Shown: positions 4,251 to 9,527 of the stretch, in pieces
Layout: every line of letters starts with the position of its first letter
Numbering within the stretch: the first letter of the stretch is position 1
Source of the DNA: Candidatus Hydrogenedentota bacterium
GTDB lineage: Bacteria > UBA8481 > J006
Direction: 5' to 3'
DNA length: 14,060 bases
NCBI GenBank assembly: GCA_003697085.1
Contig: RFFU01000117.1
Coordinates: 1 to 14,060 of the forward strand
The notes under the pieces: generated by a model
Databases searched by the model: none
The model's input: only the letters and a program-made list of their open reading frames with translations
What the model was told of the DNA's origin: nothing
Made by a program: the position numbers and the translations under genes

Positions 4251-5723
4251 CTATCGGATCATCGAGCGTTCGCCCGTGGGGGCGTAGTTAATGAAGACCG
4301 TCTTCAATTCGGTGAAGAAATTGATGCCCTCCTCGGCCATCTCGCGATCCCCCACCCCCGTCGCCTTGACTCCGCCGAACGGCAGTTGCGCCTCCCCTCC
4401 GATCGTCGGTTCGTTCACGTGGGTCATTCCCGAATGAACCTCCTCGACGAATTTCATCGCGGCATTGATGTCGGAGGTGAAGATGGAGGAGGTTAGACCG
4501 TATTTGACATCGTTGGCGAGGTCGATGGCCTCCTCCAGCGTTTCCGCCTCGACGACCGAAAGAACGGGCCCGAAGATTTCCTCCTGAAAGATACGCATAT
4601 CGCGCGTTACGCCGTCGAAGACGGTCGGCTGAACAAAATAACCGTTGCCGGCATCCACGGCTTTTTCTCCGCCGACCAGGAGTTTGGCTCCCTCCTTCTT
4701 TCCAATCTCGATGTAGTTCAAAACAGTGTTGAATTGGTTCTCGTCCACGGAGGGCCCCATCTCGGTCTTCGGGTCGAGTCCGTTTCCAATGACCATCGTA
4801 CGAGCCTTCTCGCAGATGATTTCGAGCATCTTCTCCTTGATGGAGGGGTGGACGATGAGGCGAGAGGTGGCGGTGCAGCGCTGTCCGGTGGAGCCGAAGG
4901 CGCCGGCAATGACGGCCTTGGCGGCTTTTTCCACATCGGCATCGGCCAAAGCGACCAGCGGATTCTTCCCCCCCATCTCGCAGGTGACCTTGGCGCCCTT
5001 GCGCGATCCGGATTCGTACAGCGCCGATCCGACGTCATTCGATCCTGTGAAGGAGAGAAGCGGTACGTCCGGATGTTCGACGATCGTCTTTCCGACGTCC
5101 GAGCCGGATCCGACGACCATATTGAGTACGCCGGAAGGGATTCCGGCTTCGATCAGGATTTCAATGAGAATGGTCGCGGTTGCGGGAGTGCTGGATGCGG
5201 GTTTGAAGACGACGGTGTTGCCGGCCACCAGAGCCGGAGCGATTTTCCAACAGGGAATGGCCCAGGGGAAGTTCCAAGGCGTGATCAGCCCGGCAACCCC
5301 GAGCGGCTGGCGGATCGTATAGGTTGCGGTATTGGGGACCTCCGAGGGAAGCGTCTTGCCACCGAGGCGGAATCCGGCGCCGGCATAATATTCCAAGACA
5401 TTGATTCCCTTCAGTGTTTCTCCGCGGGCCTCGGCAAGGATCTTTCCTTCCTCCCGCGTAATCGTCTCCGCGATCTCGTCAATTCGTTTCCGGGCGATCT
5501 CGACAGCCCGAGCGATGAAGCGGCCCCGCTCGGGAGCCGGAACGGAGCGCCAGGAAGAATAGGCCTTCTTCGCGGCTTCGATCGCGCGAAGCGTCTCTTC
5601 CCGCCCCGCGGCCGGAAATTCCGCGATAACCTCGGTCGTATCCGCCGGATTGATGTTTCGGATCGTTTTCGAAGAATCCGGAGTGATCCATTCTCCATCG
5701 ATGAAAGAGCCGGTATGAGCCAT
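4251..5723 (-). CDS. NAD(P)-dependent aldehyde dehydrogenase (ALDH superfamily), possibly alpha-ketoglutaric semialdehyde dehydrogenase type
   Basis: This 490-aa, full-length cytoplasmic aldehyde dehydrogenase oxidises an aldehyde to the acid. Family motifs are intact: P-W-N151-F-P-W (oxyanion-hole Asn), F-K174-P-A-S (cofactor), F-T-G-S-N (225-229), the catalytic base E249 in C-E-M-G-G-K-N-P, the nucleophile C283 in G-Q-R-C-T-A-T-S-R, and E-E-I-F-G-P-V-L near the C-terminus. The overall look (K-V-T-C-E-M-G-G-K-N-P, F-F-T-E-L-K-T-V-F-I-N-Y) resembles 2,5-dioxovalerate/KGSA dehydrogenases used in sugar-acid or hydroxyproline breakdown, but succinate-semialdehyde and other branches cannot be excluded from the sequence alone. 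The ATG is preceded by GGGAGG about 8 nt upstream. A candidate -10 (TAGAAT) lies at 5762-5767 with a poor -35. It converges with the TPR-kinase gene, leaving a gap of 37 bp. No pathway partner is adjacent, so the substrate is open. Confidence 0.95.
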   Translation of the reverse strand: MAHTGSFIDGEWITPDSSKTIRNINPADTTEVIAEFPAAGREETLRAIEAAKKAYSSWRSVPAPERGRFIARAVEIARKRIDEIAETITREEGKILAEARGETLKGINVLEYYAGAGFRLGGKTLPSEVPNTATYTIRQPLGVAGLITPWNFPWAIPCWKIAPALVAGNTVVFKPASSTPATATILIEILIEAGIPSGVLNMVVGSGSDVGKTIVEHPDVPLLSFTGSNDVGSALYESGSRKGAKVTCEMGGKNPLVALADADVEKAAKAVIAGAFGSTGQRCTATSRLIVHPSIKEKMLEIICEKARTMVIGNGLDPKTEMGPSVDENQFNTVLNYIEIGKKEGAKLLVGGEKAVDAGNGYFVQPTVFDGVTRDMRIFQEEIFGPVLSVVEAETLEEAIDLANDVKYGLTSSIFTSDINAAMKFVEEVHSGMTHVNEPTIGGEAQLPFGGVKATGVGDREMAEEGINFFTELKTVFINYAPTGERSMIR

Positions 5724-5898
5724 TCTTCAATCCTCCCACGGAAAAATTTTTCGAGCGGGGAATTCTACAGAGATGTAAGACGGAGGAAAAGGGATTTCTT
5801 ATCCTGGAAACGCGCTCTCGTCATTTCTCATCGCCATCCATCAGTTTGTTCTTCCGAGGGATGTGCGTGGTTTCGGTTCTCTCTCCGCGGTACCCTCC

Positions 5899-6543
5899 CT
5901 AATAATCGCTGTAGGGAATGCCCTCCGTCGAATTGGAAGTGTTGTTGATCCGAACCTTGCCGTCGACGTTTCGATAATGCCAGCCGCGTAAGTCTCCATT
6001 GGGATTGGACTTTGGATCGTCCGGAAGATAATTCGTCTGCCAGGCACCGTTCGAAACGCGATTGTGCCCCGGAAAACCGTCCTGAAATTCCCACTGGCCG
6101 AAATTGACATCAGCACCGCCCGAGACCTCGGCTACCGGCATAACGGGCATAAAATCCTTCAGCGCCTTGCTGACGCCCCATTGGCCGTTACCGTCGTCCC
6201 AACCTCCGCTCAGCGCATCCCCATCCGCCCAGTTTTCGTTAGCCGCTGGAGGCGAGACATAATCTCCTTCGCGGATAGCCCAGGGATACCCGTCTGTTTG
6301 ATTGCCACCAGATAGATTCTCCGGTTTATTGATCGTCGTCTTGTACATCTTGACGGCGGAGCGGATCGTGTAGAGGCCGGTGTAGGTGCGGGACTCGCGA
6401 GCCTTGTAGATGGCGCGCTGAAGACTGCTAAGAAAGATGGCCGCCAGGACTCCGATAATTGCCACGACCGTGAGCATCTCCATCAAGGTAAAACCTTGCG
6501 ATTTCTCCTTCCAATAACACTTTCTCAACGAGAGTCTCAACAT
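5899..6543 (-). CDS. Type II secretion/type IV pilus-like pseudopilin, copy 1
   Basis: This is a 214-aa prepilin-like protein. A short basic leader (residues 1-17, containing R-K, W-K-E-K) ends at G17, followed by F-T-L-M-E-M-L-T-V-V, a class III (N-methylation) signal with Glu at mature position 5 (E22). Prepilin peptidase should cut after G17. The hydrophobic helix (18-40) is followed by an extended amphipathic helix and a soluble domain rich in G/N/W/D, ending W-H-Y-R-N-V-D-G-K-V-R-I-N. This architecture fits a GspG-like major pseudopilin. The mature part is 197 aa and differs from copy 2 (6776-7453) at only 22 positions by my count. The start is ATG 6543 because GGAGGAGG lies just upstream; the longer in-frame start would merely translate that SD as R-R-R-R. 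A TATAAT at 6599-6604 gives it its own promoter. No other secretion or pilus gene lies in the window, so its machine must be elsewhere. Confidence 0.9.
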   Translation of the reverse strand: MLRLSLRKCYWKEKSQGFTLMEMLTVVAIIGVLAAIFLSSLQRAIYKARESRTYTGLYTIRSAVKMYKTTINKPENLSGGNQTDGYPWAIREGDYVSPPAANENWADGDALSGGWDDGNGQWGVSKALKDFMPVMPVAEVSGGADVNFGQWEFQDGFPGHNRVSNGAWQTNYLPDDPKSNPNGDLRGWHYRNVDGKVRINNTSNSTEGIPYSDY

Positions 6544-6598
6544 GGCCCGCCTCCTCCTCTTTCGGAGAATCGTGAATACCTTCAATTCCAGAAGTTAA

Positions 6599-6627
6599 TT
6601 ATAACAAAAAATGAAGGAGAGTGGAAA
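6599..6627 (-). promoter_or_regulatory. Putative sigma70 promoter of pseudopilin copy 1
   Basis: On the minus strand a perfect TATAAT (6599-6604) lies 55 nt before the ATG. The -35 position (6622-6627, TTCCAC) is poor. It overlaps an A/T-tract palindrome (eight A, GGAA, eight T on the plus strand, 6625-6644) that could act as an UP-like or bent element and compensate. The predicted transcript start is near 6592, giving a leader of about 49 nt. No operator-like sequence is seen, unlike copy 2. Confidence 0.5.
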
Positions 6628-6775
6628 AAAAAGGAATTTTTTTTGGGAATGCACAGGTCCATGGTGAGCGGCCTGGGGAGGTGGGGGAGGAGCAGGCCAG
6701 AAGGGGTAAAGGAAGAAGGAGGGAAAAAATGTCGGGAATGGCGGTTTTCTTTTTCGGGTTACCTTCCCGATTTGT

Positions 6776-7453
6776 TCAGTAATCGCTGTAGGGAATGCCC
6801 TCGGTGGAATTGGAAGTGTTGTTGATCCGAACCTTGCCGTCCACGTTGCGATAATGCCAGCCGCGATAATCACCGCCGGGATTGGAGGCGGGAGCGTCGG
6901 GAAGAAAATTCGTCTGCCAAGCCCCGTTGGAATGATTTGAGTAACCGGGGAACCCATCCTGAAAACCCCATTGCCCGAAATTGACATCGGCGCCTCCGGA
7001 GACCTCCGCGATCGGCATCACGGGCATAAAATCCTTGAGAGCCGTGCTAACGCCCCACTGGCCGTTGCCGTCATCCCAACCGCCGTTCAATGCGTCTCCC
7101 GGTGCCCAATTTTCATTGCCCGCGGGCGGTGAGACGTAATCGCCCTCTCGAAGAGTCCAGGGATAACCTTGCGTTTGGTTGCCCCCAGGTACGTTCTCCG
7201 GTTTATTGATCGTCGTCTTGTACATCTTGACGGCGGAACGGATCGTGTAGAGGCCGGTGTAAGTGCGCGATTCACGGGCTTTGTAAATGGCTCGCTGGAG
7301 ACTGCTGAGAAAGATCGCCGCCAAGATTCCGATGATCGCAACGACCGTCAGCATCTCGATGAGAGTAAATCCTCTCTCGAAAGCGAAAGAGAAGGATTCT
7401 TTTCCGCTTTCCGTCTTCTTTCTTCCCATTCCACGCCTTTTCTTTTCAACCAT
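6776..7453 (-). CDS. Type II secretion/type IV pilus-like pseudopilin, copy 2
   Basis: This is a 225-aa prepilin-like protein. A 28-residue leader with a basic start (M-V-E-K-K-R-R-G) ends in E-R-G28, then F-T-L-I-E-M-L-T-V-V, with Glu at mature position 5 (E33). Its mature part is 197 aa, the same length as copy 1 and about 89 percent identical (22 differences by eye). The helix region has only two changes and the last 28 residues are identical. Differences cluster in the middle (for example Y-S-N-H against H-N-R-V, and P-G against L-S). The leader is unrelated to that of copy 1, so the duplication or later homogenisation covers essentially the mature region. The start is ATG 7453, with GAGGTG 8-13 nt upstream. 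A TTG 168 nt further up would add a run of Lys/Arg encoded by a purine tract and is rejected. It is expressed from the promoter/operator at 7658-7721. The two genes are separated by 232 bp. Confidence 0.9.
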   Translation of the reverse strand: MVEKKRRGMGRKKTESGKESFSFAFERGFTLIEMLTVVAIIGILAAIFLSSLQRAIYKARESRTYTGLYTIRSAVKMYKTTINKPENVPGGNQTQGYPWTLREGDYVSPPAGNENWAPGDALNGGWDDGNGQWGVSTALKDFMPVMPIAEVSGGADVNFGQWGFQDGFPGYSNHSNGAWQTNFLPDAPASNPGGDYRGWHYRNVDGKVRINNTSNSTEGIPYSDY

Positions 7454-7686
7454 CTCGTCCCACCTCACTTTCTCCTTCCCTTTCCCATTCCCTTTTCCTT
7501 CCGCTTCTTCTCCTTTCCTTTTTCTTTTTCTTTTCCTTCTCCTCCTTCTTTTCCTTCTCCTGCTGCTTTTCTTCCCTTCTCCCTTTTTTTCCGCTTCCGT
7601 GTCCGTCTCCAGGAGCGTCAAAGGTGACGTTCAAGGCACCCTCACCGGTCCGGAGATTTATGCAATCGTTTGAGCAAGCGCTTGCA
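7454..7686 (-). other. Long purine-rich 5' leader of pseudopilin copy 2, with a homopurine tract
   Basis: Between the predicted transcript start (about 7686) and the ATG (7453) lie about 233 nt with no gene. Much of it is purine-only on the transcript strand. The longest uninterrupted stretch, 58 nt of C/T on the plus strand (A/G in the RNA), is 7504-7561, and shorter tracts extend to about 7600. Homopurine-homopyrimidine DNA of this length can form triplexes, and a purine-only leader would be unstructured and rich in SD-like AGGAGG words. Read as protein it gives only K/R/E/G runs, so I treat it as untranslated. Confidence 0.55.
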
Positions 7687-7689
7687 TAA
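7658..7689. promoter_or_regulatory. Putative LacI-family operator at the pseudopilin copy 2 start site
   Basis: A perfect 12-bp palindrome GCAAGCGCTTGC (7674-7685) has the central CG and AAGCGCTT core typical of LacI/GalR-family operators. It overlaps a second inverted repeat, TTATGCAA (7658-7665) with TTGCATAA (7682-7689). Lying right after the -10 box, at about +1 to +12, it is placed as a repressor site. No LacI-type regulator gene is in the window. Confidence 0.6.
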
Positions 7690-7692
7690 GTA

Positions 7693-7721
7693 AATATAGC
7701 CCCTATTCAGACAAATGTCAA
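7693..7721 (-). promoter_or_regulatory. Near-consensus sigma70 promoter of pseudopilin copy 2
   Basis: On the minus strand, TTGACA (7716-7721) is followed by a 17-nt spacer and TATATT (7693-7698). This is a perfect -35 box and a 5/6 -10 box at ideal spacing. The predicted start is near 7686, next to the palindromic operator. It is the strongest promoter-like sequence I found in the window. Confidence 0.75.
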
Positions 7722-8049
7722 CCCCCAAAAGAAAAAAGGTGTCATTCTTACAATTTGACAATTTCGGCGAGAGACGCGCATGTGGAGACCGCGGCGCGGG
7801 TGGCGGGCGCGGAGCGGGAGACGGGGGGACGCCGGGTGAGATCGAGGTGGGAAGGTACCAGAGGTGCGGAGCGGAAGGGGGGGGGAGGCCGGAGGAGGAC
7901 GCGGAGGGAAGGCGTGGAGAAGGGTGCGGGAACGAGGGAGAACGGGCGAAGGACGCGCGGAGTGCGCGCGGTGGGAACGTGCGGAGGGGACGGAGCGGAA
8001 GGGGGGGAGACGAGATAAACGGGGGCGATTCGCTGGGCGCCCATCTCGA
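7722..8049. repeat. Gene-free G-rich region with a diverged duplicated block (offset 124 bp)
   Basis: This stretch has no credible gene; frames across it give only G/R/E-rich low complexity. A block at about 7827-7883 recurs at 7951-8007 with a constant offset of 124 bp. Shared pieces are GGACGC, GGTGGGAA (7846 and 7970) and CGGAGCGGAA followed by at least seven G (7867 and 7991). G runs reach nine (7877-7885) and seven (8001-8007). It looks like a degraded tandem duplication. No function can be assigned. Confidence 0.5.
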
Positions 8050-8184
8050 TTGTCATTCCGAGGAGGGCGCAGCCCGACGAGGAATCCCCCACGAGCGCCT
8101 ATCTGGCCGCAGTGTGGGACAACGCGTGGGAGCGATTCCCCGCGGAGCCTGTCCCGAGCGAACGCGAGTGGCTGGGAATGACAA
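8050..8184. repeat. Dispersed palindromic/MITE-like repeat (TTGTCATTCC ends)
   Basis: A 135-bp unit is bounded by perfect 10-bp inverted ends, TTGTCATTCC (8050-8059) and GGAATGACAA (8175-8184). It contains internal GAGGAATC and GCGATTCC words in opposite orientation. GTCATTCC-type repeats of this look are scattered through many bacterial genomes (from memory, no search done). It lies 38 bp past the stop of the GYF gene and could fold into a long hairpin in that transcript. No coding capacity. Confidence 0.6.
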
Positions 8185-8222
8185 CGAGGCGAAGCAGCCG
8201 GAACGAGAAAAGGAGTGACGCC

Positions 8223-9107
8223 TTATTCTTTGATCGGTTTGGCGTGACCGCTTTTGATCATCTTTCCGAGGATCTCGCAGCCGCGCATTCCGCAGAGCCC
8301 CTTATTGTTCGGAGGGCAACAACATTTTCGAGGTTTCGTGGTGCAGATTTTTCTCGAAGCCTCGTCGGACCTGCAGTCGGCGGAACACGTTCCGTACTTC
8401 ATTCGGAATTCGAGATCGGAGCCGTAATAAAGGTTGTTTCTTATCAAGACCCCCGCGACCGGAAGAAGCGCAATTACGACGATGATGGCGATGTTCCGCG
8501 GGGTCCATTCCCAATCGGCGGCGAGCGGACGGGGAATCTTCTTCCGCCAGCCCTTCCGCCCGTCCTTCTCTTCCGTTTGGCTTTTTTCCCTTTCCGCCTT
8601 TTTCGGCTCCGCACCTGTCCTTTCCGAGACAGTGGATTCCGGAAATTCCACCAGATCCTCCCTGGGAACCTGACGCGGATCCTCGGCGGGATTTTTCCAA
8701 GCCTTGAAGAGACGGGTGGAAGAGAAAGGAACCGCCTTCGGCCAGGTTTGATGTCGGAGCAGATCAGTCGGTTTGATCTCCTTTCGATCGAGCATCCGCA
8801 GGAGGGCCTGAAGCGCGAACGGTCCCTGTTCCGGCTTCGGCCGCCTTTGGATATACCACTCGATACCAAGGTCCGGTTGGGATTTCCCCGTGACCTCCTG
8901 GAGGTCGGTCACGGTTCCGGCGGCGTGCGCAGCAGGTGAAGGAGCCTCGGTCGAAAAGAGGTCCTTCAGCTCCGCGTCATCTTCCGCCTTGACCCACTCG
9001 GTTCCTCCGACGGGAGTCACGAGATCCTCAGGTTGGATCGATCCTCTCAGTGACTCCTTGTCATAAGGTCCGAGCGTTTCACCGTTTCTGTAGAGGTACC
9101 ATTGCAT
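8223..9107 (-). CDS. Double GYF-domain (GYF_2/DUF4339-like), single-TM protein with Cys-rich C-terminus
   Basis: This is a 294-aa protein. Residues 2-51 (W-Y-L-Y-R-N-G-E-T-L-G-P-Y) and 84-137 (W-Y-I-Q-R-R, then Q-G-P-F-A-L, D-L-L-R-H) are two copies of the bacterial GYF_2 domain, normally a cytoplasmic peptide-binding module found on membrane proteins. A charged linker (about 138-200, K/E/R-rich) leads to one membrane helix (205-223, I-A-I-I-V-V-I-A-L-L-P-V-A-G-V). The last 70 residues hold eight Cys (241, 245, 255, 262-264, 272, 277). Basic residues before the helix put the GYF part inside and the Cys-rich tail outside, where it could be disulfide-bonded or bind metal. The ATG is fixed by the first GYF domain starting at residue 2. 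The SD (AAGGA) abuts the ATG, so translation may be modest. It stands alone between two repeat-filled gaps; partner and function are unknown. Confidence 0.8.
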   Translation of the reverse strand: MQWYLYRNGETLGPYDKESLRGSIQPEDLVTPVGGTEWVKAEDDAELKDLFSTEAPSPAAHAAGTVTDLQEVTGKSQPDLGIEWYIQRRPKPEQGPFALQALLRMLDRKEIKPTDLLRHQTWPKAVPFSSTRLFKAWKNPAEDPRQVPREDLVEFPESTVSERTGAEPKKAEREKSQTEEKDGRKGWRKKIPRPLAADWEWTPRNIAIIVVIALLPVAGVLIRNNLYYGSDLEFRMKYGTCSADCRSDEASRKICTTKPRKCCCPPNNKGLCGMRGCEILGKMIKSGHAKPIKE

Positions 9108-9158
9108 TCCTTCACTTCACTCGAGGTCCTTTCTTACCCGAGAACGCGCAATTTGTCC

Positions 9159-9527
9159 AATGCAAGGGGTGCGATTTTATTTTGTAGGTAGTCACCCGGC
9201 CAGCGTAATAGGGAGGGCAAGAGCAGGGGCAAGGGCAAGCACGAGGGCAAAAAGGAGAAGGATCAAGGACGGGGGCGAAGGCAGGAGTAGGGGCGGAAAA
9301 AGACGCTACCGCGCTTGTTCTCGTCCGTGCTCGTCCCGGCGAGGACGCCGGGACCTCCATCGATGGACCAACAATGGAGCGGCGGATGCGCTCGTCCGCC
9401 CTACCCCGCCGAGACATACGCCTCAAGGTCCATCCCTGGGAATCTCCAACGGCTCCTGAACCCGTTCCAAGGCGTTTGCGACTGTCCAAACCTACCTACA
9501 AATCAAAACTGCGCCTAATGCAAGGGG
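9159..9527. mobile_element. Candidate MITE-like element with imperfect inverted ends and 11-bp flanking direct repeat
   Basis: AATGCAAGGGG occurs at 9159-9169 and again at 9517-9527. Just inside are imperfect inverted ends of about 23 bp (18 matches by eye), with a perfect 11-bp core TTTGTAGGTAG (9181-9191) and CTACCTACAAA (9492-9502). The 347-bp interior has no gene. It holds a G/GCAAG-rich low-complexity stretch (about 9215-9300) and two hairpins. The direct repeat reads as a target-site duplication, but 11 bp is unusual and it may instead be part of the ends. It accounts for most of the gap between the GYF and STAS genes. Confidence 0.5.
9333..9354. repeat. Perfect GC-rich hairpin inside the MITE-like element
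   Basis: GTCCCGGCG (9333-9341), loop AGGA, then CGCCGGGAC (9346-9354): a 9-bp perfect stem with no T-tract, so not a typical terminator. A second smaller stem, GGCGGA with TCCGCC, follows at 9381-9400. Confidence 0.6.

Follow-up and report, generated by a model that had tools for sequence, protein, structure and literature searches.

The operator predicted upstream of pseudopilin copy 2 in the window (the whole stretch of DNA analysed, 14,060 nucleotides, which is the entire contig C10 of a 3.2 Mb genome in 145 contigs) appears to be real and is probably functional. In the explanation that we consider likely as a whole, a LacI-family repressor—C136 LacI being the best candidate—would bind TGCAAGCGCTTGC on the transcription start of copy 2, with a weaker, overlapping second site joining the first, and would block RNA polymerase until a sugar derived from a glycan frees the repressor. 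One repressor would control about ten promoters in this way, that of its own gene included, and induction would bring up filament subunits along with the machinery that handles one glycan; this glycan is probably a β-glucan.

Promoter and predicted operators of pseudopilin copy 2

The features of the window on which the argument draws are as follows.

7716..7721, minus strand: -35 box TTGACA, read directly
7693..7698, minus strand: -10 box TATATT, 17-nt spacer, from a promoter scan
about 7686-7687, minus strand: predicted transcription start, placed by inference
7673..7686, minus strand: O1, main predicted LacI-type operator, TGCAAGCGCTTGCT
7661..7674, plus strand: O2, second predicted operator, TGCAATCGTTTGAG, overlapping O1
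7454..7640, minus strand: purine-rich long 5' leader, operator to ATG 7453, from the sequence
6776..7453, minus strand: copy 2 of the pseudopilin, 225 aa counted from ATG 7453, with an N_methyl motif, not GspG
6598..6627, minus strand: promoter-like site of copy 1, TTTCCA-N18-TATAAT, TG ahead of the -10
5899..6543, minus strand: pseudopilin copy 1, without operator

The promoter TTGACA-N17-TATATT (7721-7693, minus strand) scores 11/12 and is the top promoter-like site within 5700-9200; nowhere else in the 14-kb window does a site reach 11/12, and dinucleotide shuffles expect 0.02 such sites per window. O1 starts 6 nt past the -10 box, and its palindrome spans the predicted +1. The original prediction had described this minus-strand promoter with a LacI-type palindrome just downstream, and its coordinates were exact and its details all correct. 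Perfect 12-bp palindromes are by themselves unsurprising in the window (7 vs 4.9 expected); the weight of this one comes from its LacI-type sequence, from its position on a promoter close to consensus and from the way the motif recurs across the genome. Dinucleotide shuffles expect 0.005 exact copies of the 12-mer GCAAGCGCTTGC (7674-7685) per window, and 0.035 copies of the degenerate core GCAANCGNTTGC. O1 is an even palindrome with central CG, of the TGNAANCGNTTNCA type with one outer mismatch; in the LacI family, even palindromes with central CG are documented, as is autoregulation, in 72% (PMC4052901). On a regulon matrix built partly from O1 itself, O1 scores 22.6 bits and O2 9.1 bits.

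O1 had also been placed inside a second inverted repeat. Both arms, TTATGCAA (7658-7665) and TTGCATAA (7682-7689), are present, but the repeat would be better read as two overlapping operators, O2 and O1, because the left arm TTATGCAA opens TGCAATCGTTTG (7661-7672), which on its own matches the regulon core in full. The centres of O1 and O2 are 12 bp apart, and overlapping LacI-family sites ~13 bp apart are a documented class (PMC4052901). Because of the long 5' leader, O1 lies 220 bp from ATG 7453, beyond the usual 30-140 bp for LacI-family operators; some 7% of known sites of the family are >200 bp from the start codon (PMC4052901).

Several further observations concern the surroundings of this promoter. 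The copy 2 leader includes ~170 nt that are nearly all purine, with numerous GGAG motifs, and an alternative upstream TTG start of copy 2 would give an extra Lys/Arg-rich N-terminus. Positions 7760-8020, between the promoter and the neighboring GYF_2-domain gene (8223-9107), are very G-rich and of low complexity, and hold no convincing gene. From their sequences, we take other neighbors in the window to be an aldehyde dehydrogenase-like gene and rnc-, fabF- and acpP-like genes. No Rfam families were found in the window.

Copies 1 and 2 are 83% identical over their full length and 88% in the mature part. The idea that copy 2 is switched while copy 1 is not holds insofar as copy 1 is without an operator and has its own promoter, weaker than that of copy 2. 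Between the two copies, however, the minus strand yielded no convincing terminator, so that read-through could still couple copy 1 to copy 2.

Recurrence of the operator and the predicted regulon

Searching the genome by pattern gave 2 copies of the exact 12-mer GCAAGCGCTTGC, in C10 and C75. The degenerate core GCAANCGNTTGC occurs 7 times (vs 3 for the reversed control), all 7 being intergenic, and TGNAANCGNTTNCA 13 times (vs 2 for the control); TGCAANCGNTTG gave 12 matches on the plus strand (control 2) and 5 on the minus strand (control 1). When one mismatch in 14 was allowed, TGCAANCGNTTGCA was barely over its control (11 vs 7): loose matching loses the operator signal. The TGCAANCGNTTG matches fall in 13 places, 10 of them intergenic, vs 13% non-coding DNA (binomial p = 2.5e-7), the corresponding 87% coding figure coming from a simple hexamer gene caller run on ~308 kb of regions picked around the sites. 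Counting the two window sites once leaves 9/12 intergenic (p = 1.5e-6). Core matches at C58, C101 and C113:104627 are in-gene and without a palindromic end, and were not taken as operators; TGAAACCGGTTTCA at C72:3647, which encodes ETGFT within a pseudopilin, was likewise rejected. The operator family TGCAAnCGnTTGCA is predicted to define a regulon of about ten promoters, with these members.

C10: pseudopilin copy 2; -10 box to operator 6 nt
C113:27296: pseudopilin, 52-55% identical; TTGACA-N18-TATACT, operator 9 nt past the -10 box
C110:50734: minor-pilin operon of pilin-like genes, for N_methyl proteins plus one protein of 775 aa that carries a lamin-tail domain
C110:46078: PorV/PorQ-family protein; -10 box to operator 7-12 nt
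C75:13789: 445-aa protein with a hydrophobic segment and a GH2-type barrel; TTGACT-N17-CATATT, operator at 7 nt
C106:108413: 2021-aa GH2-type barrel protein; operator overlaps the -35 of TTGCAT-N17-TATAAT
C50:4599: CBM30-like lipoprotein, then a distant relative of GH149 (β-1,3-glucan phosphorylase)
C47:13222: aldo/keto reductase
C129:7225: TGAAAGCGCTTGCA; gene for a sugar-binding domain of LacI type that lacks a DNA-binding domain, then a GH2-barrel gene
C136:15900: promoter of a LacI gene; TTGACT-N17-TTTAAT, then 5 nt, then TGCAAGCGTTTG

An additional site, C136:17252, lies behind the C136 LacI gene. The targets are scattered over the genome; the promoters of C47, C50 and C129 fit the -10/operator geometry poorly, and the GH149 match of the C50 protein is distant (95 bits vs a cut-off of 1150). 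In C129, TGAAAGCGCTTGCA is 139 bp upstream of the sugar-binding-domain gene (L025:6115-7086). Glyco_hydro_2_C is among the families matched by the targets, and the GH2-barrel proteins of the regulon would be secreted or anchored. The 2021-aa C106 protein (L022:2078-8143) has Ig-like domains and, at its C-terminus, a type IX secretion sorting domain, and the genome also has PorV-family genes. With the palindrome recurring in regulatory positions, glycoside hydrolases among the downstream genes, and three LacI-family genes in the genome, one with the operator in its own promoter, the claim that a LacI-type operator gives copy 2 carbon-source control is well supported in silico.

The comparison covered 60 genomes, of which only one (G001) is in the same order and none is closer than order. 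G001 has 17 LacI-type sites vs 2 for the control, and several of them, as we read the sequence, presumably adjoin glycan genes. One (C55:3892, L065) directly follows the TTGAAT-N17-TATACT of a relative of the C72 pseudopilin; the -10 box is 10 nt before the site and the mRNA may be leaderless. This site overlaps the first codons (ATG AAA CCG CTT ACA), so coding constraint could contribute, and the G001 sites appear to offer independent though imperfect support. Eight distant genomes, several of them pseudopilin-rich, showed no comparable excess of TGNAANCGNTTNCA (2-7 sites vs 0-5 for the control), and by eye none of their listed sites lies just upstream of a listed pseudopilin. Within the genome of the window, a GYF-like protein encoded in C72 (L056:6122-6892), similar-looking to the window GYF_2 protein, adjoins an ABC operon with a pseudopilin; between the GYF-like gene and the ABC operon is a LacI-type site, TGTAAGCGGTTTCA, at C72:6061.

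Candidate regulators and other readings

Proteins of the LacI type generally act as repressors until they bind a sugar, and the position of O1 on the predicted start site would fit repression. Sugar effectors are on record for LacI-family regulators (PMC4052901). The three LacI-family genes are in C136, C106 and C118. The C136 gene (C136:15952) carries the regulon operator in its own promoter, in the same place as in the window promoter, and its product is the best candidate owner of O1. The recognition helices of C136 LacI (LSESTVSR) and C106 LacI (VSISTVSR) have ST where C118 LacI has AT. The motif of C118 LacI is different, TGwAAnCGGTTwCA, and occurs at its own gene and at other glycan genes (C118, C91 and C92; L027, L057 and L058): a PF10091 glucoamylase-like/CBM9 protein, a CBM11 lipoprotein, a sugar ABC operon that includes GH94, and a GH35 gene. 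A second LacI motif at glycan genes points to carbohydrate control by LacI proteins as general in this genome.

The operator could be as described and yet belong to C106 LacI (C106:117 kb), alone or with C136 LacI. The two proteins share the recognition residues STVSR, a palindrome, TGCAAACGTTGCA, lies upstream of the C106 gene, and the regulon site C106:108413 is just 9 kb from it. We nevertheless regard ownership by C106 LacI as rather unlikely: the palindrome in its own upstream region is an odd one of 13 bp (TGCAA-ACG-TTGCA) with a shorter spacer, whereas all regulon sites are even, as in the C136 promoter. Less probable again is global carbon-catabolite control, in which the sites would be cre-like and a CcpA-like LacI protein would sense energy or carbon state rather than one glycan sugar. 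The operator sequence does resemble the general LacI/cre consensus, and the targets are scattered single operons with an aldo/keto reductase among them; against this, there are only about ten sites, their targets are glycan- or surface-related with no central-metabolism genes seen among them, and other glycan genes of the genome belong to a second LacI regulon, distinct from this one. A chance palindrome of no regulatory role on a real promoter is very improbable: palindromes of this length are not rare in the window, but a LacI-type core sits at the start site, the same architecture is found at the homologous C113 pseudopilin and at the C136 LacI gene, and the sites have a strong intergenic bias.

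Orphan pseudopilins, secretion and precedents

Copy 2 has the prepilin N-terminal cleavage/methylation motif, with both PF07963 (28 bits) and TIGR02532 (32.9 bits) above cut-off. On the GspG equivalog TIGR01710 it reaches 35.8 bits vs a cut-off of 88.85, and on these scores copy 2 is not GspG. The real GspG of the same genome is a C70 protein (133.3 bits on TIGR01710), its gene adjoined by gspK (177 bits), and two more ATPase/platform pairs are in C119 and at C106:157 kb. Copy 2 is not inside a gsp operon. No operator was found near the pilin genes of C70, C119 and C106:160 kb, the best matrix score within ~1.5 kb being ≤4.4. The term secretion pseudopilin in the original prediction is therefore too firm for a protein so far below the GspG cut-off, and its suggestion that carbohydrate-active enzymes are exported finds no support here, since the protein is not GspG and the true gspG cluster is without the operator. 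A search of GTDB contigs found no homologue of the window pseudopilin, and its AlphaFold model has a mean pLDDT of 41, too low to be of use.

The operator is common to degradative enzymes and pilin genes, while the core secretion apparatus is not in the regulon. With canonical clusters free of the operator, the sugar switch would govern the C110 minor pilins and the orphan pilins rather than core machines. A more specific reading, which we offer tentatively, is that in this deep-branching lineage a LacI repressor switches on a dedicated non-GspG filament (the two orphan pseudopilins and the C110 minor pilins) alongside glycan enzymes and a PorV-family protein; the filament would be a glycan-specific capture or export device on constitutive type II/IV pilus platforms, its subunits swapped by sugar.

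KdgR is an IclR-family protein, and in the Klebsiella pul system MalT activates a complete secretion operon, unlike the predicted LacI repression of stand-alone pilin genes. Sugar gating of a secretion pseudopilin, originally called unusual, is less so in the light of both systems, in which secretion genes are sugar-induced. In Dickeya/Pectobacterium, pectinases and the type II apparatus are both under KdgR (PMC4908373): much as predicted here, a single sugar-responsive regulator serves scattered loci for polysaccharide-degrading enzymes and for type II secretion, but KdgR runs a real type II apparatus, whereas here the gspG cluster is without the operator and only orphan or minor pilins have it. 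The Klebsiella pul promoters are maltose-induced (PMC10790770), so that a secretion pseudopilin is expressed in response to its substrate's sugar. In Cytophaga hutchinsonii, type II secretion genes take part in cellulose use and polysaccharide use has been linked to a GspG-type protein; the abstract of that paper notes no regulatory link to a LacI protein (PMC5553014).

Local LacI carbohydrate regulons have the same even central-CG palindrome, autoregulated regulator, carbohydrate genes and tandem or overlapping sites, but here the targets extend to pilin-like and PorV-family genes (PMC4052901). The words 'secretion' and 'pilin' are absent from the main text of Ravcheev et al. 2014, which surveyed 1303 LacI-family regulators (PMC4052901), and a Caldicellulosiruptor regulon paper makes no mention of pilin. 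We found no LacI-controlled pseudopilin in the open-access literature, which argues only weakly that none has been described. It is already known that polysaccharide enzymes and secretion can be controlled together; the predicted LacI-type operator at orphan pseudopilins would be the new part.

Some poorly studied genomes are rich in pseudopilin-like genes (40 matches in one unrelated genome, 25 in another), and most of these genes are without known function. Through the predicted operator, two pseudopilins, a minor-pilin operon and a PorV-family protein would be linked to a glycan regulon, which offers a testable role for them and a growth condition under which it might be seen. Because pilins, glycan enzymes and, likely, the regulator itself have this predicted switch in common, the filament is probably made together with the enzymes for one glycan, and may hold the glycan, haul it in or help secretion.
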